From Nitrospinota bacterium (GTDB lineage: Bacteria > Nitrospinota_A > UBA7883 > JACRGQ01), in NCBI GenBank assembly GCA_029881495.1, contig JAOUMJ010000007.1, positions 59,793 to 123,792 of the forward strand: a stretch of DNA of 64,000 nt, given 5' to 3'. Positions 2,433 through 40,553 of the stretch are shown here, piece by piece. The position numbers and the translations under genes are program-made. Within the stretch, counting starts at the first letter, position 1. Every line of letters starts with the position of its first letter. The notes beneath the pieces are model-generated. The model saw only the letters and a program-made list of their open reading frames with translations. It did not search any database and had not been told where the DNA came from.

Positions 2433-3020
2433 TTATTGCCTGTTCTTTTCTATCAAATTATCTAAAGCTTTAGCGTGAAGTTCCTTCGCCTTTTTGTCGC
2501 CAAGCATTCTGAGATAGTGGTTGTATCCGAGCATTAAGGCGTTAAATTCAAATGCAAAAAGTTTACAGTCAGTTTCCTTTTTGAATTCCCCTGCCTCGAC
2601 AGCCAGTTTGGCCGAATGAGCCAGCGTATCTATCCATTGCTGTTGAAGGGATTGAAGACGATCTCGTACTTTTCCGGGCCGATCGTCAAACTCCACCGAG
2701 GCGGAGATAAAAGGACAGCCGCCAGGGAGGGAATTGGTATCCCACATGCGCCAATTTTCCGCAATTGCCCTGATTCGCCCAATGCCTCGTGGTTTTTTGA
2801 TTGCCGGCACCATAACGGTGTTAATGAAAACCTCAGAGGCATATTCGAGCATTGAAATTTGCATAGTCTCTTTTGATTTGAAATGCGCAAAGAGACCGCT
2901 TTTTGACATTCCGACGATTTCAGACAATTTTCCGATTGTAAGCATTTCGATGCCGTATTCGCTGGCATAGAGGAGTGCGGCATCCAGGATTTTTAATTTA
3001 GTATCGCGCTCTTTTTTCAT
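2433..3020 (-). CDS. TetR/AcrR family transcriptional regulator
   Basis: A 195-residue repressor with an N-terminal TetR helix-turn-helix (about residues 8-55, with LTIGKLSEIVGMSKSGLFAH) and a C-terminal ligand-binding domain that carries the GGCPF...EFDDRPG signature of one large TetR subfamily. Its ATG follows closely behind a promoter whose spacer is a near-palindrome, which points to autoregulation together with the downstream hydrolase. The inducer is unknown. No Shine-Dalgarno sequence is visible before the ATG, so the message may be almost leaderless. Confidence 0.88.
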   Translation of the reverse strand: MKKERDTKLKILDAALLYASEYGIEMLTIGKLSEIVGMSKSGLFAHFKSKETMQISMLEYASEVFINTVMVPAIKKPRGIGRIRAIAENWRMWDTNSLPGGCPFISASVEFDDRPGKVRDRLQSLQQQWIDTLAHSAKLAVEAGEFKKETDCKLFAFEFNALMLGYNHYLRMLGDKKAKELHAKALDNLIEKNRQ

Positions 3021-3026
3021 GCCAGT

Positions 3027-3055
3027 AATATAACACGAACGGTCGTGCTATACAA
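3027..3055 (-). promoter_or_regulatory. Promoter with embedded TetR operator
   Basis: Read on the minus strand there is a TTGTAT -35 element, a 17-base spacer and a TATATT -10 element. The spacer and its edges form a near-palindrome centred on CACGA(C/A)CG...TCGTG (3029-3052), typical of TetR-family operators. The predicted start of transcription falls only a few bases before the tetR ATG at 3020. Confidence 0.6.
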
Positions 3056-3090
3056 CCGGGCTGAATTATTGAGCTTTTTCAGGAAATAAT

Positions 3091-3119
3091 AAAAGGGGAG
3101 GATGGGGTCCTCCCCTTTT
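3091..3119 (-). terminator. Duplicated cysH-type terminator hairpin
   Basis: A 12-base perfect stem (AAAAGGGGAGGA / TCCTCCCCTTTT) with a 5-base loop, identical to the hairpin after the intact cysH at 4687-4715. Here it follows the truncated cysH copy, and it can also stop transcription coming from rsgA. Confidence 0.75.
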
Positions 3120-3170
3120 AGGGGGTGCGCAACCGGGACATAGATATCCCGCATACGGGTTGGGCTAGCT

Positions 3171-3301
3171 TCAGACCATCGCCACGATTTCGTCTTTGAG
3201 TGGCCTAGTATGAATTCCGCATTCGCCGCCGCACTTGGAGGTTCCGGCCCAGCGTCCGTCTCTTTCGTTTTCAGACGTTGTGATAGCCGTACATGGCGCG
3301 C
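3171..3301 (-). pseudogene. Truncated 3' fragment of a cysH homologue
   Basis: The minus strand encodes the last 43 codons of an APS/PAPS reductase, from APCTAITTSENERD through the active-site stretch CGGECGIHTRPLK to a TGA stop. The intact cysH ends the same way at 4767 but with TAA. The match stops abruptly at about 3301 (inside the codons for GCAPC), so no 5' part remains. Within the coding part only two amino-acid changes are seen (Asp to Glu and Ser to Ile near the end) against about seven silent changes. The fragment therefore looks like the end of a diverged but once functional cysH, not a fresh copy. Confidence 0.8.
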
Positions 3302-3343
3302 GAGCAACGCATCGAATGGAATTTATGGGTTGGCGCCGATAAA

Positions 3344-4399
3344 TCACTCTTTCTTTTTCTTCTTGTACGATTTGATAAACCGACCGAATGCCTTATCCTT
3401 TTTTCGCTTATCAAGGTATGACATTTCGTAGTACTCCGATTCCTTCTTCAGCTTGATATAGCTGGTATATCGGTCTTCGCTCAATTTATCGCTTTCGATC
3501 GCGGCCCGGATGGCACATCCCGGCTCATGCTCGTGGTTGCAATCCGCATAGCGGCAATTTGCAGATAGTCCCACAATGTCTTCGAAACCCGCATCGATAC
3601 CGCCGCCGGTACTTAGAATGCCAAGCTCTCTCATGCCGGGGGTATCTATCAGCATCGCGCCCTGATCGAGAACAATGAGCTGCCGTCGCGAAGTCGTGTG
3701 GGTGCCTTCTCCCGTGACGCTTACCGGTTTTGTGTCGAAGGCTTCTCGTCCTACGAGGCGGTTGATGAGTGTCGTCTTTCCGACTCCAGATGAACCAAGG
3801 AGACAGTATGTCCTTCCTGGATAGAGTGTCTGTTGGAATTCGCTAAATCCGCTCCCCGTGGTGCTGCTGAGAGCGAGTACCCTGGCTTTGGCGGCGGTGC
3901 TGAGGATCGCAAGCTTCTGCTCCAGTTCGTCATGGGTGATCAAGTCTGTTTTGGTAAGCAAGACTATTGGTTCAACGCCACCATCCGCTGCCATGACCAT
4001 GTATCGATCCAGGCGGCGGGGATTAAAATCGAAATGACATGACTGAACAATGAATGCGACATCTATGTTGGCCGCAATCATTTGGAAATCGATGTTCGCG
4101 CCCGCGCTCTTGCGGCGCAGAAATGTTTTTCGCGGAAAAACCCCATGGATGATAGCTGCCGTGTGATTGTCATAGTACTGTGCCGATACCCAATCTCCAA
4201 CACACGGCAGGTCAACAGGACTTTCAATCTGATAAGAGAACTTTCCCGATAGCTCGGCAGAGACTTCTCCTAATTCATTTCTTATCAGGTATGAACCGCG
4301 ATCGACTGCCGATACGCGCGCAATTTCGTCTCCTTCATGGAGGAACTGGGCAGGATGTATTTCAAACCATTGTTCGAAACCGAGGTCGCTCAATTTCAT
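3344..4399 (-). CDS. rsgA: Ribosome small subunit-dependent GTPase A
   Basis: A circularly permuted GTPase that helps late maturation of the 30S subunit. The 351-residue protein shows an N-terminal OB-fold (about 35-105), then the permuted G motifs: G4 LTKTDL (about 155), G1 GSSGVGKTTL (about 205), G3 DTPGMRELG (about 255), and the C-terminal zinc module CRYADCNHEHEPGC (about 285-298). The tail is lysine-rich (YKKKKKE). Length is normal. It stands alone on the minus strand between two copies of the cysH 3' end, which suggests it reached this place, or was separated from its neighbours, by recombination. No promoter was assigned in the AT-rich region upstream (4400-4686). Confidence 0.95.
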   Translation of the reverse strand: MKLSDLGFEQWFEIHPAQFLHEGDEIARVSAVDRGSYLIRNELGEVSAELSGKFSYQIESPVDLPCVGDWVSAQYYDNHTAAIIHGVFPRKTFLRRKSAGANIDFQMIAANIDVAFIVQSCHFDFNPRRLDRYMVMAADGGVEPIVLLTKTDLITHDELEQKLAILSTAAKARVLALSSTTGSGFSEFQQTLYPGRTYCLLGSSGVGKTTLINRLVGREAFDTKPVSVTGEGTHTTSRRQLIVLDQGAMLIDTPGMRELGILSTGGGIDAGFEDIVGLSANCRYADCNHEHEPGCAIRAAIESDKLSEDRYTSYIKLKKESEYYEMSYLDKRKKDKAFGRFIKSYKKKKKE

Positions 4400-31532: not shown

Positions 31533-34097
31533 ATGGGACTGTTTAATTTCAAAAAAATCGGGTTTTTCAAGGATATTCCGGATTGGGTACATAGACGCAA
31601 ATACCAAGTCTGGGCAATCTTCATTTTGCTGACCATTATGATTGCTCCCGGGGTTGGAAGGTTCCAGCTTGATCTTTCGGATGAAGCATTTCTTCAGGGG
31701 AAGGACAATGTGCGGATAGCATATGACCGCTTTCGCTCCCAGTTCGGCGGTGACGAGTCGATCTACTTCGTATACAGGGCAAAGGATGGCGACGTCTTCT
31801 CCGACAGATCGCTTAAGGCGTTGTACGGTATTCAGGAAGAACTCCTCGGATACCGCATGAAATTACAACCAGGGGAGAGGTCGCCGCTTGATCATATTGT
31901 CGATGTCACCACGATTTTAAACGTCAGCTATCTGGAGGCTTCTGAAACAGCCCTGGTTTCAAGACCTTTTATCGGAAACAATTTCCCGGCGAATGAGGAA
32001 GAGCGGAATAAACTGAGGGAGAGTGCGTTGAACCATCCCGACTATCCGAAGGTCTATATTTCGGAAGACGGCAAGTATGGCGGCATACTTATTCGCACCG
32101 ATTTCAAGACAAACAAGGTTGGAGATGTTTCCGAAGAAAAACTTCTGGATATGGATGAACCTGGAGATTTCGATGTAACCGAACAAGTGGGGGCCGTTTC
32201 AACGTCCGCTGAGACCGTTTCAGAATTTGAATTTGTGGAGATGGAGGATTATGTCAACCTGACCCACGCTATTTATAGCATAACTGATAAACCGGAATAC
32301 ATGGATGCCTTGGAGTACTTCCCAGTAGGGAGGCCAATTTTCGATACATTCATTTTCGACCACTTTGTACCACAGGTAAATGCTGTCATGATAGCCACTA
32401 CATTGATGATAATGGCAATGCTTTGGATACTGTTCCGCTCGCTGGCGGCTGTTGTTTGGCCTATCGTGATCGTCATGATATCGGCCTTATTGACAGTTGC
32501 GGTTCTAGGATGGTTTGATCTGCGGATGAACATGATGGTAAACATCATTATTCTTCTTGTTTTCGTAGTCGGTGTGGCCGATTCGGTTCACATCCTATCT
32601 GGCTATATTCTGTTCCGAAAGAAAGGCGAGGACCACCGCACTGCGCTTCGGTCTACGTACGAAAAATCCGGGCCTGCCGTGATGCTCACAAGCGTAACAA
32701 CCTCACTTGGTATGCTCGCATTGCTGATCGTTCCAATAGTACCGCTGAAGATATTCGGCTTCGCGGCGGCGGTAGGCGTGCTATTCGCTTTCGTGATTAC
32801 TCTTTTCATGCTTCCTCTCATGCTTGATATATGGAATCCATATACATGGAAAACCAATATTGACGCATCGGAACCGCGACATCATTTTGTGCAGAAGGTA
32901 TTGAGAAAAACGGAACACTGGAGTCATTCAAAACCGTATGTCAACATCGCGATCTTCACCGCAGTAACAATCGTATTGATATTCGGGACATTGAAGGTTG
33001 AGGTAGATTCGAATATTATCAAACTCTTTCCAAAGGATTCATCCGTTAGTCGGGCTTATAATCTTGTAGATACCAAAATGGGGGGTTCGCAGAATCTTGA
33101 AATAATGATCGAGGCCCGACAGCCGGGCGCTTTGCGCGAGCCCGACATCCTAAACGCGATGGAAAGTGTTCAAAACTATCTTGAGAACGATATTGACCCG
33201 GTAGTCACAACTCGTTCGCTTGTAAATATCGTAAAGGAGTCGAACAAGGCCCTGAACGGCGGTCGCGATGAGGAGTACGCGATACCGCAGGATCCGGCTT
33301 TGTTGAAACAGACGATATTCCTGTTTGATAATACCAATCCCGCGGACAGGCGAAAAGTGGTGTCGGACGACTACAGCCAGGGGCATATCTCTGCCACTAT
33401 CATAAACTTGGGGTCAAAATATTTCGCCGGTATGCTGGATGACATTCACGCTGAGGTTGACAAAACCTTTGATCCGTTAAAAACACGGTATCCGGGGCTT
33501 GAGGTTACCGTCACAGGCGGGCTGACAATGATTGCGACCATAGTCAACTACATTGCCTGGTCGCAAATATACGGATTCGGTCTGGCGCTGACGGCGATAT
33601 CCATAATCCTCTTCTTTACATTCGGTTCGATACGCATCGGCCTGATAGCGCTCTTTCCAAATCTTTTCCCGATATTCGTCGTTTTCGGGATGATGGGGTA
33701 TATGCGAATCCCCTGCGATACCGACATTCTTATAGTCGCTCCGCTGATGATAGGGATAGTCGTTGACGATACGATTCATTTTCTGACACACTACAGGCTC
33801 TCACTCCAAAAAGGGGGGGATATCAACAGCGCAATAATTTCCACGTTCCGCGAAGTGGGACAGGCGATAGTATTTACAACGTTGATACTGGCCGGAGCAT
33901 TTCTCTGCTTCCTCGGCCTGGATCATAATGGGCTGAAGAATTTCGGAATTCTTTCCGCGGCTGCGATAACAACCGCGCTATTGGCGGATCTGTTTTTGCT
34001 TCCGGCTCTGCTAAGTGTAACGAATGCAGGGATGATCAAGGAAATTAAAGGTGATCAATTGGCAACCGAAACCGTTTACCAGGGAGAAGTATCATGA
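31533..34097 (+). CDS. RND superfamily (MMPL-type) transporter
   Basis: An 854-residue inner-membrane transporter with the two-fold RND plan: one transmembrane helix and a large periplasmic loop (about 55-270), a block of five helices (about 278-430), then a second helix (about 478), a second loop and a second block (about 675-840). Motifs include VVGVADSVHILSGYILFRKK and, in the second half, IGIVVDDTIHFLTHYRL, the sterol-sensing-like MMPL/HpnN type rather than the AcrB drug-efflux type. Such proteins export lipids and other hydrophobic molecules. Preceded by GAGGAGG; it overlaps the next gene by four bases (ATGA). Confidence 0.93.
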   Translation: MGLFNFKKIGFFKDIPDWVHRRKYQVWAIFILLTIMIAPGVGRFQLDLSDEAFLQGKDNVRIAYDRFRSQFGGDESIYFVYRAKDGDVFSDRSLKALYGIQEELLGYRMKLQPGERSPLDHIVDVTTILNVSYLEASETALVSRPFIGNNFPANEEERNKLRESALNHPDYPKVYISEDGKYGGILIRTDFKTNKVGDVSEEKLLDMDEPGDFDVTEQVGAVSTSAETVSEFEFVEMEDYVNLTHAIYSITDKPEYMDALEYFPVGRPIFDTFIFDHFVPQVNAVMIATTLMIMAMLWILFRSLAAVVWPIVIVMISALLTVAVLGWFDLRMNMMVNIIILLVFVVGVADSVHILSGYILFRKKGEDHRTALRSTYEKSGPAVMLTSVTTSLGMLALLIVPIVPLKIFGFAAAVGVLFAFVITLFMLPLMLDIWNPYTWKTNIDASEPRHHFVQKVLRKTEHWSHSKPYVNIAIFTAVTIVLIFGTLKVEVDSNIIKLFPKDSSVSRAYNLVDTKMGGSQNLEIMIEARQPGALREPDILNAMESVQNYLENDIDPVVTTRSLVNIVKESNKALNGGRDEEYAIPQDPALLKQTIFLFDNTNPADRRKVVSDDYSQGHISATIINLGSKYFAGMLDDIHAEVDKTFDPLKTRYPGLEVTVTGGLTMIATIVNYIAWSQIYGFGLALTAISIILFFTFGSIRIGLIALFPNLFPIFVVFGMMGYMRIPCDTDILIVAPLMIGIVVDDTIHFLTHYRLSLQKGGDINSAIISTFREVGQAIVFTTLILAGAFLCFLGLDHNGLKNFGILSAAAITTALLADLFLLPALLSVTNAGMIKEIKGDQLATETVYQGEVS

Positions 34098-34960
34098 AAA
34101 AAATCGTATTTACACTCTTGATGGCGGCTTTCTCATATGGCACCTCTTATGGCGGGGATGCAAAAGAGATAATGCAGAAGGTGCTTGATCGCGAGAATGG
34201 AAATTCCCAGTACAGCGTGCAGACGGTTTCCACATGTAGATATGAAGTAAAAAAGAAAACCATAGCATGTGCCGAGACCCCGCGGACAAAGGTCGTCGAA
34301 ACGATCCGGAAGGATTACGGCCCTAAAGGGAAGGATATTAAAAGCGTCAGCCTGATTTTGGAGCCTTCATCCGAAAGAGGTATAGGATTTCTTCAATATG
34401 ATTATGAAGACCAGGAGAAGGAATCCGATCAGTGGATGTATCTTTCCGCTCTGGGCAAGGTAAAGCGGGTAGTTTCGGGACGGAGCGATGAGCCGAAAAC
34501 CGGCACCCTTTTCGGATCGGAAATTTCCTATGAAGATGTGGAAGTGAAGCATATCGATGATTTCATTTACACACTCCTGATAGAGGAGAAGTACGATGGC
34601 AGGGAATGCTGGGTAATTGAGTCGGTTCCAACTCCGAAGCACGCCAGGAAAAGCAATTACAGCAAGACCGTTCAATGGATAGACAAGGAGCGCCTGGTGG
34701 TGTACCGCGCGATCATGTACGATCGCCACGGAAAACCTGCAAAGCAGATGACCCAGAGCGATTATGTTTTGAAGGATGGAGTATGGATCGCGAAGAAAAT
34801 GAATATCAACAATGTTCAGAGCAGAAGAATTTCAACTTTGAAACTGGATGATGTGGCCATCAATATTGCGGTAGATGATTCGCTCTTTACGGAACGTACG
34901 CTGACCGACGATTCCTTCCGCGAGGGGAACATGCGGGATATCCGCGTGGCAAAAAAATAG
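34094..34960 (+). CDS. Outer-membrane lipoprotein-sorting protein (LolA-like)
   Basis: A 288-residue secreted protein with an N-terminal signal peptide (about 1-20, cut after SYG) and a LolA/LolB-like half-barrel domain of the type often annotated as 'outer membrane lipoprotein-sorting protein': SERGIGFLQYDYEDQ, DQWMYLSALGKVKRV, GTLFGSEISYEDV. Proteins of this type are regularly encoded next to MMPL-like RND pumps and are thought to shuttle a hydrophobic cargo through the periplasm. It is translationally coupled to the RND gene (ATGA) and followed by a barrel protein gene. Confidence 0.88.
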   Translation: MKKIVFTLLMAAFSYGTSYGGDAKEIMQKVLDRENGNSQYSVQTVSTCRYEVKKKTIACAETPRTKVVETIRKDYGPKGKDIKSVSLILEPSSERGIGFLQYDYEDQEKESDQWMYLSALGKVKRVVSGRSDEPKTGTLFGSEISYEDVEVKHIDDFIYTLLIEEKYDGRECWVIESVPTPKHARKSNYSKTVQWIDKERLVVYRAIMYDRHGKPAKQMTQSDYVLKDGVWIAKKMNINNVQSRRISTLKLDDVAINIAVDDSLFTERTLTDDSFREGNMRDIRVAKK

Positions 34961-34984
34961 CCATAAAGGGAAGAGAGGCAAGCC

Positions 34985-36280
34985 ATGCGTTATTCAGCGG
35001 TTGCGCTTTTGATGATGCTCGGATGGCTGGTTCCATACACGGCGCCAGCCGGTGCGGAAGGGAACACCGATTTCGAAACATTCGAACTTGGCGAGGATTT
35101 CGAGATTGATGAAACATCCACGGAGCCTTTATTAAGTAAAGATTTAAGATTTACCATCTCCGCCGGTGGGGGGATGCCTCCGCAAGGATCGGCCTCCGAG
35201 GGCTCCTACCGGTTTGACCTTCGCACACAGTGGGGGCGTTATTTCGATAATGGACTCTTTTTTTCCCTCGACGCCAAGGGGGTGATCGGAAATTCCGAGT
35301 CACGGTTCATCGACAATAGGGATGTCGCCGCAGGTTCATTAAGATTGCGCGACCTCTATATTCAAAAGGGGGCGGATTGCTGGAGTTTGAAAGCCGGATA
35401 CCAGGTGATCGTTTGGGGAGAGCTGGACATGGTCCAAATCACAGACGTTGTAACTCCATGGGACTACTCGGAGTTTGCATTCACAGCCCCGGAGGATGCG
35501 AGGGTAGGGCAGGCAATAGTCCTTTATGAGTTTTACAAGGCGCTTGGAGGGACAGCGGGCATTTTTATAAATCCCATCCCTCTTACGAACCGATATCCGG
35601 GCGGGGATGCGAGAAATCTTTTCGCGAAGTCTTTTGGCTCAACAAGTTTTATCCTCGAGGAGAATAAACCGGGATCATTTGGTAACAATGCCGAGTTCGG
35701 TTTTAAATGGAAAAAGAATGCTGGAATTATGGACCTGTCCTTTATGGGGGCTTCGCTTTATGCGGATGACGCCGTCTATACGTTCAAGGGGACTGCACCA
35801 GAACCGGTTTTTACATCCGAATATCCAAAATTTGTTGTTGGTGGCGCCGCCGTGAACATAAGGGCGGAAAACCTGCTTTGGAAGGTGGAAGTGGCGCACA
35901 AGGAGCGGGAGGGAGTTCCATCCGGCAGTGAGAAGATCGTTTCGGATGAAGCAGGGCTTGGGGTAGATGTGAACATCAGGGATATATACTCGCTTGTTTT
36001 TGAAACTTCGGTAAGACAAGGGAGCGATGGAGATACCTCCATATATGCCGCAAGAGGGTCAAGATCGTTTCGTAATGAAACGCTTAACGCCGTCATATTT
36101 TTAAGTTATGATACTAATAGCGAGTATCTCGTAAAGGCACTCTATTTCAGGTATTCTGTCAGCGATAATATCTCCGCGGAATTTAGCGGTACTGTCATGG
36201 ATGTCGGCAAGGAGGATTCACCAATGAAATTTGTCGATAGCATGGATGTGGTTACTCTCAGGGTAAACTACTACTTTTAA
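34985..36280 (+). CDS. Predicted beta-barrel outer-membrane protein (DUF1302-like)
   Basis: A 431-residue protein with a signal peptide (about 1-24) and a long run of alternating polar/hydrophobic strands ending in the aromatic VVTLRVNYYF, as expected of an outer-membrane barrel. It resembles the DUF1302-type barrels that accompany RND/LolA-like operons; the assignment to that family is by context and texture, not by a firm motif. It lies 24 bases after the LolA-like gene, so tetR-RND-LolA-like-barrel reads as one trans-envelope export pathway. Confidence 0.78.
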   Translation: MRYSAVALLMMLGWLVPYTAPAGAEGNTDFETFELGEDFEIDETSTEPLLSKDLRFTISAGGGMPPQGSASEGSYRFDLRTQWGRYFDNGLFFSLDAKGVIGNSESRFIDNRDVAAGSLRLRDLYIQKGADCWSLKAGYQVIVWGELDMVQITDVVTPWDYSEFAFTAPEDARVGQAIVLYEFYKALGGTAGIFINPIPLTNRYPGGDARNLFAKSFGSTSFILEENKPGSFGNNAEFGFKWKKNAGIMDLSFMGASLYADDAVYTFKGTAPEPVFTSEYPKFVVGGAAVNIRAENLLWKVEVAHKEREGVPSGSEKIVSDEAGLGVDVNIRDIYSLVFETSVRQGSDGDTSIYAARGSRSFRNETLNAVIFLSYDTNSEYLVKALYFRYSVSDNISAEFSGTVMDVGKEDSPMKFVDSMDVVTLRVNYYF

Positions 36281-36387
36281 AGCACAGAAGCCGGCTATAT
36301 TTGGGCCAGCCACAGGTGTGCGTTCAAACCATGCAGCATTGGGAAAATGATATTTTTTTCAGTTGCGGTTTTCAAAAAGGAGGAGAG

Positions 36388-36780
36388 ATGACGATTGAGT
36401 GGAAAGAAGAATTCAGCGTCGGCGTGGAGAAGTTCGACGAGCATCACAGGAAACTGCTAAGCATTATTAATTCGCTCATGGATTCGGCAAACGCGGGAAA
36501 AGGTGGAGATACTTCCGTGGTCAGCATCCTTAAAGAGCTGTATGAATACTCCAAGTATCATTTCAGCGAGGAAGAAAAAGAGCTTGAATCGCGAGGGTAC
36601 GCAAACCTGGAAAAACAAAAAGAGGAACATGCGCGATTTGGCAAGCAGATACATGAATACAGCTCGATGTTTTTGGCCGATTCGGAACCGAAAGTATCGG
36701 AGGTTGCGGACTTCCTTTCAAACTGGATGCTCAACCATATTCTTGAGGAAGACCGGAGATACATGACCGTTTTCAAGTAA
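36388..36780 (+). CDS. Bacteriohemerythrin
   Basis: A 130-residue four-helix oxygen-binding protein. Di-iron ligands can be read as His in EKFDEHHRKLL, His and Glu in YSKYHFSEEEKELE, His in KEEHARFGKQ, and His and Asp in NHILEEDRRY. The ATG at 36388 follows AAGGAGG and is chosen over a start 29 codons upstream. Single-domain hemerythrins store or sense oxygen, often in microaerophilic or motile bacteria. It stands alone between two operons. Confidence 0.93.
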   Translation: MTIEWKEEFSVGVEKFDEHHRKLLSIINSLMDSANAGKGGDTSVVSILKELYEYSKYHFSEEEKELESRGYANLEKQKEEHARFGKQIHEYSSMFLADSEPKVSEVADFLSNWMLNHILEEDRRYMTVFK

Positions 36781-36883: not shown

Positions 36884-37393
36884 ATGCAATTCAAACATCT
36901 TTTTCAGATATTGTTTTTTGTTTTATCAGTCTCCAGCCTTCCAGTCTCCGTTCACGCGGAGGATGACCCACCGCAGAGGGAATACGAGAAGTTTCTTGAT
37001 CTCGAAAAGTACAAATATGATGTTATTCTTCTCGATTTTTGGGCGTCGTGGTGCGATCCATGCGTTAGATCGTTCCCATGGATGAGCGAAATGGAAGAGC
37101 AGTACGGCCCAAAAGGCTTCAGGGTTGTAACCGTGAATCTTGACAAAAAAAAGGATGCTGTAGACCGGTTTATGGCGAAGTTCCCTTGGATCAAATTTCC
37201 GGTAATTCTTGATCCAAACGGGAAACTTGCGAACAAGTGGAAGCTTCAGGCTATGCCGACGTCCTACCTGATCGACAGGGAGGGGAAAGTAAGGTATGTT
37301 CACAAGGGATTTTTTCTGGAACAGTTATCGACTTACGAAGCGCACATAAAAGAGCTGGTTGGAGAGTCTCCCTCCGGCAATTCTGCAAAATAA
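36884..37393 (+). CDS. TlpA/ResA-like periplasmic thioredoxin
   Basis: A 169-residue thioredoxin-fold protein with a signal peptide (about 1-25, ending VHAED) and the redox motif WASWCDPCVRSFP (Cys57, Cys60). The cis-Pro site AMPTSYLID and the TlpA-type insert are visible. Such proteins reduce or isomerise thiols outside the cytoplasm. It begins a cluster with a DUF4266 lipoprotein, a DUF3570 barrel and ApbE, so its substrate is probably the Cys-rich DUF4266 peptide or the barrel. Confidence 0.9.
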   Translation: MQFKHLFQILFFVLSVSSLPVSVHAEDDPPQREYEKFLDLEKYKYDVILLDFWASWCDPCVRSFPWMSEMEEQYGPKGFRVVTVNLDKKKDAVDRFMAKFPWIKFPVILDPNGKLANKWKLQAMPTSYLIDREGKVRYVHKGFFLEQLSTYEAHIKELVGESPSGNSAK

Positions 37394-37414
37394 TATTTGA
37401 AGGAACTGGCAACA

Positions 37415-37651
37415 ATGGGTAAAACACGTTCACAAAAGGTCATTTCATTTATGCTGTTCACGATTCTGCTGTTTTCGTCGGGATGCGCGTCGATAGGCGT
37501 ACAGGTTTGGGACAGGGATCTCCTGGCAGAAGAGTCGATGAAATTCGATTCCACCCCGATCCAGACTGCGCTTGAGGAACATATATATTTCAGCAAGGAA
37601 GCATCAAGCGGCGGACGCGGTCTTGGCGGAGGCGGATGCGGATGCAACTGA
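37415..37651 (+). CDS. DUF4266 small lipoprotein
   Basis: A 78-residue lipoprotein. The signal ends in the lipobox LFSSGC (Cys24); the mature part is only about 55 residues: a short VQVWDRDLLAEESMKF helix, EHIYFSKEASSGG and a glycine-rich end finishing GGGGCGCN (Cys75, Cys77). The C-terminal Gly/Cys signature and neighbours identify DUF4266, whose function is unknown. A TTG at 37397 could extend the N-terminus by six residues. The gene overlaps the DUF3570 start by 16 bases. The two terminal cysteines could bind metal or form a disulfide handled by the adjacent thioredoxin. Confidence 0.88.
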   Translation: MGKTRSQKVISFMLFTILLFSSGCASIGVQVWDRDLLAEESMKFDSTPIQTALEEHIYFSKEASSGGRGLGGGGCGCN

Positions 37652-38913
37652 AAAAGAAAGGGCCGATACGCGCCGCGCTCGCAACGGCTACCTGCACACT
37701 GCTCGGGGTGACGTCCATCGCTTCTGCCGCCACAAATCTGGACGGATGGCAGCTAGATGGAGCGTTTCTCCTCTACACTGAAGCAAATCGGATCACTGTC
37801 GTTGAGCCGGTAATAAACGGAAAGAAGGATTTTGGAGGCGACAGGTTCCTGAACCTGAGGCTTATGCTTGACGCCGTGAGCGGTGCTTCTCCCAATGGAG
37901 CGTCACCCTCCGACCAGCCGCAGACATTCACAAGCCCGTCGGGGGTAATGACCTACACGGTAAATGAGGGTGATGCGCCGGTACACCCCCACTTTAAGGA
38001 TACCCGCCTTGCGCTTAGCGCCGCCTGGGATCAGCCGATCACGAGAATAACAAAAGGGAACATCGGCCTGAACTTCTCGAAAGAGAACGATTTCCAGTCA
38101 CTCGGAACAGGCGTTGGAATAGCTCAGGATCTGTTCAGCAGGAACACTACCCTAACTCTGTCGATATCGACCGAAGCGAACACGATAAATCCCACCGGAG
38201 GGATACCAACCCACATGACTAATATGATCCCACCTGGACAGGTGGCATCGTTTGAAGCGCAACAATCCCGGGACGTTCAGGACGGGCTTATAGGGCTAAC
38301 CCAGATTATTAGCCGCCACGCCATCATGCAGCTTAATTACTCATATGGCAAAACAAACGGCTACCAGAATGATCCATACAAGCTTATAAGTATCGTCGAT
38401 AGAACTACCGGAAAACCTATCAGGTATGTTTATGAGAACCGGCCCGAATTACGGATCCGGGAGAGCCTCCTTTGGCAGGGGCGATACCACTTTGCCACAA
38501 ATGTTGCGGGTCTGGCGTACAGGTACTACTGGGATGACTGGGGGGTCGTATCAAATACGGTGGATATCACATACCAGATCATGTTCGGCGAAAAGGATTT
38601 CATCGAACCGCATATAAGGCTTTACCATCAGTCGGCGACCAATTTTTACCGGCACAGCCTCGTTTATGAATCTGATGCGAGCCGGTATCCTGAATTTGCG
38701 AGCGCGGATTACCGCCTTGGCGATATGGACGGGATCACCGTCGGCGTGAAATTCAATACCGACATGTTTCTTAAAAAGGATGCAAGCATAAGGCTTGAAT
38801 ATTACAGGCAGTCGGGCAACAGCCATCCAGCCGACGCGATCGGAGTGCAGAAGGATATGGACATGTTCCCGACTATCCACGCGTTCATTGTTCAAATACT
38901 AGTGACCTATTGA
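37636..38913 (+). CDS. DUF3570 outer-membrane protein with flavinylation-like motif
   Basis: A 425-residue predicted beta-barrel with a signal peptide (about 1-32, cut after ASA). The sequence NLRLMLDAVSGASPNGASPS (73-92) contains D79-A-V-S-G-A-S85, which fits the D-G-x-(S/T)-G-A-(S/T) consensus at which ApbE links FMN to serine or threonine. The rest is alternating barrel strands with aromatic girdles, ending HAFIVQILVTY. It is encoded between the DUF4266 lipoprotein and apbE with overlaps on both sides, so the four genes act together. The family's function is unknown; a surface or outer-membrane redox role is inferred. Confidence 0.87.
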   Translation: MRMQLKKKGPIRAALATATCTLLGVTSIASAATNLDGWQLDGAFLLYTEANRITVVEPVINGKKDFGGDRFLNLRLMLDAVSGASPNGASPSDQPQTFTSPSGVMTYTVNEGDAPVHPHFKDTRLALSAAWDQPITRITKGNIGLNFSKENDFQSLGTGVGIAQDLFSRNTTLTLSISTEANTINPTGGIPTHMTNMIPPGQVASFEAQQSRDVQDGLIGLTQIISRHAIMQLNYSYGKTNGYQNDPYKLISIVDRTTGKPIRYVYENRPELRIRESLLWQGRYHFATNVAGLAYRYYWDDWGVVSNTVDITYQIMFGEKDFIEPHIRLYHQSATNFYRHSLVYESDASRYPEFASADYRLGDMDGITVGVKFNTDMFLKKDASIRLEYYRQSGNSHPADAIGVQKDMDMFPTIHAFIVQILVTY

Positions 38914-39866
38914 AGAGCAAACCAAAGCGCAAAAAGAAATACATACCTCGAAGCAGACCAAACCGCCCCGCAGGGGCGGAACCTGCCGTTACTCTTGCGA
39001 AAGCCGATAGCTATTTCATAGGGCGTTTCAGCGCCATGGCGAGTCCGTGCGAAATACTAATGGAGACCGATGACGCGAAGCTCGCCATGAAACTCCTTCG
39101 CATAGCCGCCCGCGAGGCCTTCCGCATTGAAAGGAAATACAGCCGCTACGTGAGCGGGAATATCATCGACAAGATCAACAACGCCAACGGGGAAAGGGTA
39201 AAGGTAGACGACGAGACCGCTCTCCTTATCGATTTTGCAAACAGCTGTTTTGAACTCAGCGAGGGCTTATTCGATGTAACCTCCGGCGTGTTAAGGAAGG
39301 CCTGGAAATTCGACGGAAGCAGCAACCTTCCGGAGCAGGTGCTGATAGACAGCATTCTGCCCAATGTCGGCTGGGGGAAGGTGACGTGGGAGAAGCCTTA
39401 CTTCAGTATGCCCGCCGGGATGGAGCTTGATTTTGGCGGCATTGGAAAGGAGTACGCGGTAGACAGAACGGTTCTCCTCCTGCGTGAAGCAAAAAAAATC
39501 GCGTTACTGGTGAATTTCGGCGGGGATATCTATACCGGCGGGGAGAAGAGGGACGGCAAGCCGTGGCTGGTTGGTATAGAGGATCCTTCCGGGGGGGAGA
39601 AGGCATCAAAGGTGCTTGAGATAACCAACGGCGCGCTCGCTACAAGCGGCGATACAAAAAGATATCTTTTGAAGGACGGCAAGAGACTTGGGCATATACT
39701 GAATCCTTTAACCGGCTGGCCCGTGGAGGACGCCCCCTCCTCAGTGACCGTAGCGGATGATACATGCACAAATGCGGGGATACTGGCGACGCTTGCCATG
39801 CTGCATGGCGCGAACGCGGAGGAGTTCCTTGAGGAGCAGGGGGTGCGCTTCTGGTGCGTACGGTAA
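38910..39866 (+). CDS. apbE: FAD:protein FMN transferase (ApbE family)
   Basis: A 318-residue ApbE-like enzyme, which transfers FMN from FAD to a Ser or Thr of a target protein. Family marks: FSAMASPCEI (about 46), SRYVSGNIIDKINNANG, LSEGLFDVTSGVLRKAW, LDFGGIGKEYAVDR (about 171-184), NGALATSGDTKRY and GHILNPLTGWPV. The start is a TTG overlapping the DUF3570 stop (TTGA). Unusually the N-terminus is a lysine/arginine-rich stretch (MKSKPKRKKKYIPRSRPN) with no signal peptide or lipobox, although most ApbE proteins act outside the cytoplasm. A metal-site Asp of classical ApbE appears as Asn in CTNAGILATLAML. Confidence 0.9.
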   Translation: MKSKPKRKKKYIPRSRPNRPAGAEPAVTLAKADSYFIGRFSAMASPCEILMETDDAKLAMKLLRIAAREAFRIERKYSRYVSGNIIDKINNANGERVKVDDETALLIDFANSCFELSEGLFDVTSGVLRKAWKFDGSSNLPEQVLIDSILPNVGWGKVTWEKPYFSMPAGMELDFGGIGKEYAVDRTVLLLREAKKIALLVNFGGDIYTGGEKRDGKPWLVGIEDPSGGEKASKVLEITNGALATSGDTKRYLLKDGKRLGHILNPLTGWPVEDAPSSVTVADDTCTNAGILATLAMLHGANAEEFLEEQGVRFWCVR

Positions 39867-39962: not shown

Positions 39963-40553
39963 ATGGGGGCGCGAATTTCGTTTTTCACAATTCTGTTGCT
40001 ACTGAATCTGTCCATGTCCGCTTTTGCGGGGAAATTGCTCACTGCCGGCCCTGTGGTCGACGGTGGAAGCGGGAACAACCTTGGCCTTATAGGGATCGGG
40101 ATATACCATTTCTCGAAGGAATCCCCCACTAGTTTTTATGTTAACTCGTTTTTCCTAACTGGGGATCGTTCAGCCGATAACGAAGTACAAACCGAGGATG
40201 AAATGCGCGGGATTTATTATAGAAACTACATGTTGAATATTGGCGCGACCCGAAGCATATTCAGTTGGTTTGGGGCATACGCCGGGGTTGGTCTCGGTTT
40301 GAAGAAGGCATACGAAGGGTGGGATACATCCGGAAGGCCCTCTACAGGAAGCTGGCTGTCAAGCGCGCTAAGTAGCGGAGGAAACGGAACGGATCCCGAT
40401 TTCTACAAACCGAAAACTTCGAGCGATCAATGGGGGTTGAACGTAAACGCCGGTATCCAGATACTGCTACCTAAAGTATCGCTGGATGTGGGGTACAACA
40501 CTCTCACGGGGAACAGTTACGTCGGATTCGGGATGGTAGTCGAGATGCCGTAA
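39963..40553 (+). CDS. Secreted protein of unknown function, probable small barrel
   Basis: A 196-residue protein with a clear signal peptide (about 1-22, ending SAFAG). The mature part has short amphipathic strands (LGLIGIGIYHF, FGAYAGVGLGLKKAYEG, QWGLNVNAGIQILL, YVGFGMVVEMP) that fit a small outer-membrane or periplasmic barrel. A good ribosome binding site (GAAAGGA) precedes the ATG. It is 96 bases after apbE, so it may be a fifth member of that cluster or stand alone. No family was recognised. Confidence 0.72.
   Translation: MGARISFFTILLLLNLSMSAFAGKLLTAGPVVDGGSGNNLGLIGIGIYHFSKESPTSFYVNSFFLTGDRSADNEVQTEDEMRGIYYRNYMLNIGATRSIFSWFGAYAGVGLGLKKAYEGWDTSGRPSTGSWLSSALSSGGNGTDPDFYKPKTSSDQWGLNVNAGIQILLPKVSLDVGYNTLTGNSYVGFGMVVEMP

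Follow-up and report, generated by a model that had tools for sequence, protein, structure and literature searches.

How could a predicted outer-membrane protein come to carry covalently bound flavin when the flavin transferase homolog encoded beside it bears no recognisable signal for leaving the cytosol? The question is raised by four consecutive plus-strand genes at 36884..39866 of a 64,000-nucleotide stretch of DNA from a Nitrospinota bacterium (assembly GCA_029881495.1, contig JAOUMJ010000007.1; the whole stretch is called the window here), which profile matches assign to a TlpA/ResA-like thioredoxin, a DUF4266 lipoprotein, a DUF3570 protein and an ApbE. The reading favoured here, to which we assign a probability of roughly 55%, is that this ApbE acts in the cytosol, attaching flavin to the DUF3570 precursor before export by Sec and BAM, in an outer-membrane flavin redox system. 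The existence of the cluster, noted in a preliminary description of the window, is confirmed, and its kind is already known; what appears to be new, as judged from sequence, is a signal-less, Cys-rich ApbE devoid of a site aspartate that serves a predicted outer-membrane barrel.

The thioredoxin gene (36884..37393) matches Redoxin (9.6e-22), Thioredoxin_8 and AhpC-TSA, and encodes a signal peptide and a W-C-D-P-C active site whose CxxC pair holds the only cysteines of the protein. It is followed by the DUF4266 gene (37415..37651; 3.3e-21; ATG at 37415, with TTG at 37397 also possible), whose product has its lipobox cysteine at residue 24 and ends in GGGGCGCN; by the DUF3570 gene (37636..38913; 1.6e-118), whose product has a putative leader peptide and a Cys-free mature part with tyrosine as its last residue; and by apbE (38910..39866; 2.4e-65; TTG start), which scores 221.2 bits against the PF02424 profile, for which the cut-off is 25.6. 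The genome, 97% complete, was found to hold one ApbE and one DUF3570. The four genes are adjacent, and the overlaps first claimed hold for DUF4266 with DUF3570 (16 nucleotides, 37636..37651, where the CGCN-stop end of one frame and the M-R-M-Q-L start of the other use the same bases) and for DUF3570 with ApbE (4 nucleotides); the thioredoxin and DUF4266 genes do not overlap. For comparison, 89 non-redundant loci, the window included, were collected in which DUF3570 scores 300 bits or more against our own profile (termed close DUF3570s; duplicate loci L001, L002, L086, L135 and L136 were dropped, and organism names are those of the database records). All four families are present in the window and in 61/89 loci, several of which are cut by contig ends; thioredoxin occurs in 68, DUF4266 in 85 and ApbE in 72, and the DUF4266/DUF3570 overlap is of the same kind ([AGT]TGCAAYTRA) in 67 of the 85 loci with DUF4266.

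Clusters of ApbE, DUF3570, thioredoxin-like and DUF4266 genes were described by Meheust et al. (2021; PMC8238504), who found the DUF3570 of C. luteolum to be flavinylated, with two modified sites. The window cluster resembles their DsbD-type clusters in its families, in that DUF3570 is the ApbE substrate there, and in the CxC end of DUF4266; 316 of the published clusters lack DsbD, as does the window locus, and a full-length DsbD is encoded on another contig of the window genome. Unlike those clusters, the window has an ApbE with neither a recognisable signal peptide nor the site aspartate, a DUF3570 with one conserved site rather than two, and a thioredoxin that does not match PF13899. Neither the barrel topology nor the differences of the signal-less ApbE branch are reported in the available parts of that paper, and the literature covered, which lay outside subscription papers and supplements, gave no instance of DUF3570 being served by an ApbE without a signal peptide. 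The outer membrane is among the localisations of flavinylation sites given in PMC11334425, the available parts of which do not mention DUF3570.

The flavinylation motif of DUF3570, D79-A-V-S-G-A-S85, lies exactly where it had been placed (37870..37890). The heptad D-x-x-[ST]-G-[AS]-[ST] occurs in 89/89 close-DUF3570 loci, and the aspartate, the glycine and the acceptor are each invariant in the alignment of the 89 proteins (89/89 apiece, the acceptor being serine in 64 and threonine in 25), so the motif is not a product of chance. Ser85 is the only conserved site, because the acceptor of the second candidate, N87-G-A-S90 (37894..37905), is serine or threonine in just 24 of the 89 loci and in 59 of the 89 aligned proteins; close DUF3570s therefore lack the two conserved [S/T]GA[S/T] sites of the clusters in PMC8238504. 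The expectation that the motif would be conserved only next to apbE proved not to discriminate, as it is kept in all 17 of the 89 loci without ApbE. Four of these 17 (L008, L035, L045 and L073) reach a contig end 70-573 bp past DUF3570, and the 17 represent 16 genomes, 12 of which encode a member of the signal-less ApbE group at another locus (L134 for L008; L228, L229, L231, L232, L234, L236-L240 and L244; some N-termini were judged by eye), the other four being L007, L027, L035 and L073, two of them cut by a contig end. A search of 36 genomes with DUF3570, 14 of which were chosen because their locus lacked ApbE, found ApbE somewhere in 36/36; a 60-genome search found it in 31, or in 26/55 after removal of five DUF3570 genomes. 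No FMN_bind and no NqrB/RnfD was found in the window genome; likewise G386 and G404, each with a single ApbE of the signal-less group, have neither.

Distant DUF3570s (L141-L153 and L158) form a different picture: most keep a DUF4266 with CxC and show stretches of the S-A-A-S, S-S-A-S or T-S-A-T type where S-G-A-S would stand, and several are linked to ApbEs with signal-peptide-like N-termini. Most of those aligned have D-x-[ILVY]-[ST]-[AS]-A-[ST] at the motif position, several with a second copy downstream, while L142, L143 and L158 lack the first copy; the published two-site description may fit these distant proteins better.

Structure prediction gives DUF3570 as an outer-membrane barrel (pLDDT, the predicted local distance difference test score, 90.6), and the model shows a barrel fold, an even number of strands, long loops on one side and a C-terminal aromatic residue (tyrosine in the window); our reading of the secondary structure suggests 16 strands. 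The mature protein is Cys-free in 87/89. In the model, the acceptor sits where predicted strand 3 reaches the extracellular side, outside any free loop. Burial of Ser85 in a barrel strand had been named as a finding that would speak against flavinylation, and this applies in part, the acceptor being among the last residues of the predicted strand. A lumen-facing acceptor, considered from strand parity, is doubtful: among residues that share its parity, 71, 73 and 77 are polar, but positions 75 and 79 hold hydrophobic ones. A skew of conservation towards the extracellular strand halves was likewise unsupported (upper 2.67 versus lower 2.56 bits, p=0.43). The comparison of all extracellular with all periplasmic parts gave p=0.086, and extracellular loops (2.63) exceed periplasmic turns (1.96), the latter comprising only 23 positions. 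By our own hydrophobicity rule, which was used for signal detection throughout in place of SignalP with thresholds of 2.0 and a laxer 1.4, the DUF3570 leader is weakly hydrophobic, reaching at least 1.4 in 88/89. It is also an unusually conserved signal peptide, with Cys20 (37693-37695) found in 70/89 proteins within A-[TS]-C-x-L-L; a thiol handshake between this cysteine and ApbE was considered and dropped, the cysteine being missing in many DUF3570 members. The proposal that the cluster encodes a flavinylated outer-membrane redox system is thus well supported by the high-confidence predicted barrel, the invariant motif and the reported flavinylation of a homologous DUF3570 (PMC8238504).

A signal-peptide-like N-terminus was found in 0/71 scored ApbEs of close-DUF3570 loci (71 of 72 were scorable; the ApbE of L072, at 2530-3648, is split into two open frames in that assembly and its pieces were left unscored), while the same rule recovered one in 65/66 thioredoxins and 81/84 DUF4266 proteins of related loci. 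Unlinked ApbEs were positive in 56/63 (the seven others being L125, L130, L165, L170, L172, L180 and L196), a sample that may favour canonical types, having been drawn from the loci of a subset of matches, for the most part the top-scoring ones (30 loci per search). Among the 120 best database homologues of the window ApbE, which include the window protein itself and some proteins of the same genomes, one was positive, and a median of 17 residues precedes the domain. The ApbEs of close-DUF3570 loci thus show no recognisable N-terminal signal peptide or lipobox of the kind found in exported ApbEs, and because a recognisable export signal is lacking, attachment of flavin probably takes place within the cell, ahead of export of the barrel. 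Cysteine content points the same way: with a median of 5 cysteines (n=70), the ApbE core contrasts with unlinked ApbEs, whose median is 0 (n=64; p=2e-20), while the operon partners are Cys-poor beyond those in use (two cysteines in 61/68 TlpA proteins, three in 83/85 DUF4266 proteins), which supports a reducing compartment for this enzyme. The cytosolic Klebsiella pneumoniae ApbE and the trypanosomatid ApbE domains, likened here by their description, also lack a signal peptide (PMC12052999); their substrates are cytosolic or fused, whereas the recognisable substrate in the window carries a putative leader peptide.

Two residues of the proposed Asp-Ser-His site, Ser246 and His262 (39645..39695; roles from PMC8906456), are kept, and Ser246-His262-Gly290 shows the same spacings, 16 and 28, as Ser241-His257-Asp285 of Vc_ApbE (PMC12052999) and Ser257-His273-Asp301 of FmnB (PMC8906456), while Thr294 aligns with Thr284 of E. 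coli ApbE, a metal ligand four residues after Asp280 (PMC4767422). The window protein is thus like these enzymes in its PF02424 domain, its Ser-His spacing of 16 and its metal-site threonine at +4, and unlike them in having Gly290 (39765..39779, together with Cys286) where FmnB, Vc_ApbE and E. coli ApbE have Asp301, Asp285 and Asp280 and the compared exported ApbEs the Mg-binding Asp, and in two added conserved cysteines, Cys47 (39048..39050) and Cys286. Glycine replaces the aspartate in 77/77 group ApbEs (70/70 associated with DUF3570 and 7/7 sister sequences), Cys47 is present in 77/77 and Cys286 in 75/77, whereas the aspartate is kept in 67/67 readable other ApbEs (6/6 and 61/61; the column is gapped in three unlinked rows, L169, L178 and L208). 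The 120 homologues agree, with glycine in 120/120, the site serine and histidine in 120/120 each and the metal-site threonine in 119/120. A tree of 147 ApbEs over 268 columns places 69 DUF3570-associated sequences, L134 among them, and the 7 sister sequences in one clade (support 0.999-1.0), and the ApbE of L005 carries the glycine yet falls outside it. Five fragmentary or repeated rows (L072, L100, L102, L109 and L184) are absent from both the tree and the residue counts, and L134, on a contig without DUF3570, was placed by hand in the DUF3570-associated group as the single ApbE of the L008 genome. The sister ApbEs (L185, L203-L207 and L211) are signal-less, with glycine for aspartate and both cysteines, and have no DUF3570 beside them; the ApbE of L230, similar to the sister group, does adjoin one. 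At L223:4278-4820, an EF-hand protein with S-G-A-S directly precedes a signal-less ApbE, possibly by chance and possibly as a new substrate.

From these elements, the following sequence of events may be proposed. In the cytosol, the ApbE without recognisable export signal would attach FMN (flavin mononucleotide) to the DUF3570 precursor at Ser85; Sec would then export the FMN-bearing chain and BAM would insert it as a barrel, with the FMN inside it near the extracellular rim. Electrons could pass from DsbD through TlpA and the Cys-Gly-Cys tail of DUF4266 to the FMN and on to an acceptor, outside or in the lumen, that would most likely be ferric iron. From the inner leaflet of the outer membrane, the DUF4266 tail, the codons of which lie at 37637..37645, would extend to the barrel. 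This tail is present in 85/85 loci, the lipobox cysteine and GGGCGCN are invariant in a 50-sequence alignment, and the C-terminal part as a whole is almost invariant, though no confident fold of the protein alone was obtained, which suggests that DUF4266 acquires its fold on binding a partner, probably the barrel. No claim is made for the structure itself, as the model is poor (pLDDT 67.2, with tail blocks at 46-51). Control of the Cys-Gly-Cys pair by the thioredoxin, as the preliminary description had it, is plausible.

Several points weigh against cytosolic flavinylation before export. That this particular branch is flavinylated is a reading of its sequence, and transport by Sec of a precursor already carrying FMN is a supposition. 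The aspartate replaced by glycine is a Mg ligand in FmnB, and the branch could be altered or weak, because alanine at Mg-contacting residues of FmnB greatly reduces or abolishes activity (PMC8906456). The C. luteolum pair may belong to another branch, one with an exported ApbE, because two sites are modified in its DUF3570. Next to distant DUF3570s, 5/6 ApbEs have signal-peptide-like N-termini. Just 38/89 close-DUF3570 leaders themselves reach 2.0, the export-signal threshold, and at the laxer 1.4, four group ApbEs count as hydrophobic (L028, L036, L040 and L071). No DUF3570 match was obtained in 5/7 genomes with a sister ApbE, so the signal-less trait is not confined to a DUF3570 substrate. 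L007 and L027 lack ApbE despite more than 6 kb downstream, and the only ApbE found in each of these genomes, both draft assemblies, is of the canonical type (that of L027 being a fragment whose N-terminus is unseen). Lastly, both ends of the electron path, donor and acceptor, are guessed at from neighbouring genes, and electrons could flow in either direction.

A different use of the same parts, doubtful though possible, is metal handling, with the Cys-Gly-Cys tail of DUF4266 binding copper or iron and the flavin of the barrel reducing the metal or gating its import. CxC pairs are able to bind metals, and genes for a cupredoxin, an EfeU-like permease and an unnamed protein of about 240 residues lie near the cluster in 9/76 neighbourhoods (L023, L028, L033, L034, L040, L051, L064, L080 and L084), all in Colwellia, Glaciecola, Paraglaciecola, Psychrosphaera or Catenovulum records, and two-component-like genes accompany them in at least six. 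The cupredoxin family was tested through one member; two of three tested permeases matched EfeU (7.9e-6 and 2.7e-8), far below the 255-bit cut-off, and Pfam named none of four members of that family tried. Together with 25 published clusters containing VIT1 (PMC8238504), these neighbourhoods are why iron is our best guess for the acceptor or cargo. Set against metal handling are the thioredoxin gene in 68/89 loci, which points to thiol redox chemistry, and the window itself, where no recognised metal transport gene lies directly beside the cluster.

In MtrCAB-type porin-cytochrome conduits, electrons cross the outer membrane through a barrel. A bolder extension of the favoured reading, which we consider rather unlikely, would make DUF3570 a haem-free counterpart: an FMN barrel loaded in the cytosol by an Asp-less ApbE, brought to the surface by SecYEG and BAM, with the Gly-rich CGC tail of DUF4266 entering its lumen. 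The likeness would lie in electron transfer through a barrel, a function presumed for DUF3570; the difference is that the Cys-free mature part has no c-type haem site, flavin and thiols taking its place.

Two further alternatives concern the enzyme. The signal-less ApbE may no longer be a flavin transferase and may instead bind flavin or metal, or chaperone the barrel precursor under the control of a thiol switch, as the loss of aspartate to glycine and the gain of Cys47, both in 77/77, would allow, alanine at FAD/Mg-contacting residues (FAD, flavin adenine dinucleotide) being crippling in FmnB (PMC8906456); the retention of Ser246, His262 and the metal-site threonine, and of an invariant target motif that a dead enzyme would not require, makes this unlikely. 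That ApbE instead leaves the cytosol by an unusual route and modifies the barrel in the periplasm before BAM insertion, in keeping with the mostly exported characterised ApbEs (PMC12052999) and with the signal-peptide-like neighbours of distant DUF3570s, is improbable given the near absence of such N-termini (0/71 and 1/120), a Cys-rich core unlike that of the compared exported ApbEs and the need for a flavin source outside the cytosol.

A hemerythrin-domain protein (36301-36780) precedes the window cluster and a small barrel-like protein (39963-40553; OMP_b-brl, below the cut-off) follows it, each across a gap of about 100 bp, and both are absent from the families that recur in at least 5 of the 76 neighbourhoods. 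An MMPL transporter, a LolA-like protein and a DUF1302-like barrel (31533-36280) form a separate gene set upstream.

In the usual account, ApbE flavinylates exported proteins outside the cytosol, which requires flavin there. If the favoured reading is true, Sec passes and BAM folds a chain already loaded with its cofactor, and the cell is freed from exporting flavin for DUF3570. If the enzyme is active, an ApbE branch lacking a residue held to be important would alter the accepted catalytic picture. Finally, if the barrel carries electrons, it would provide a flavin route to iron outside the cell that dispenses with outer-membrane cytochromes.

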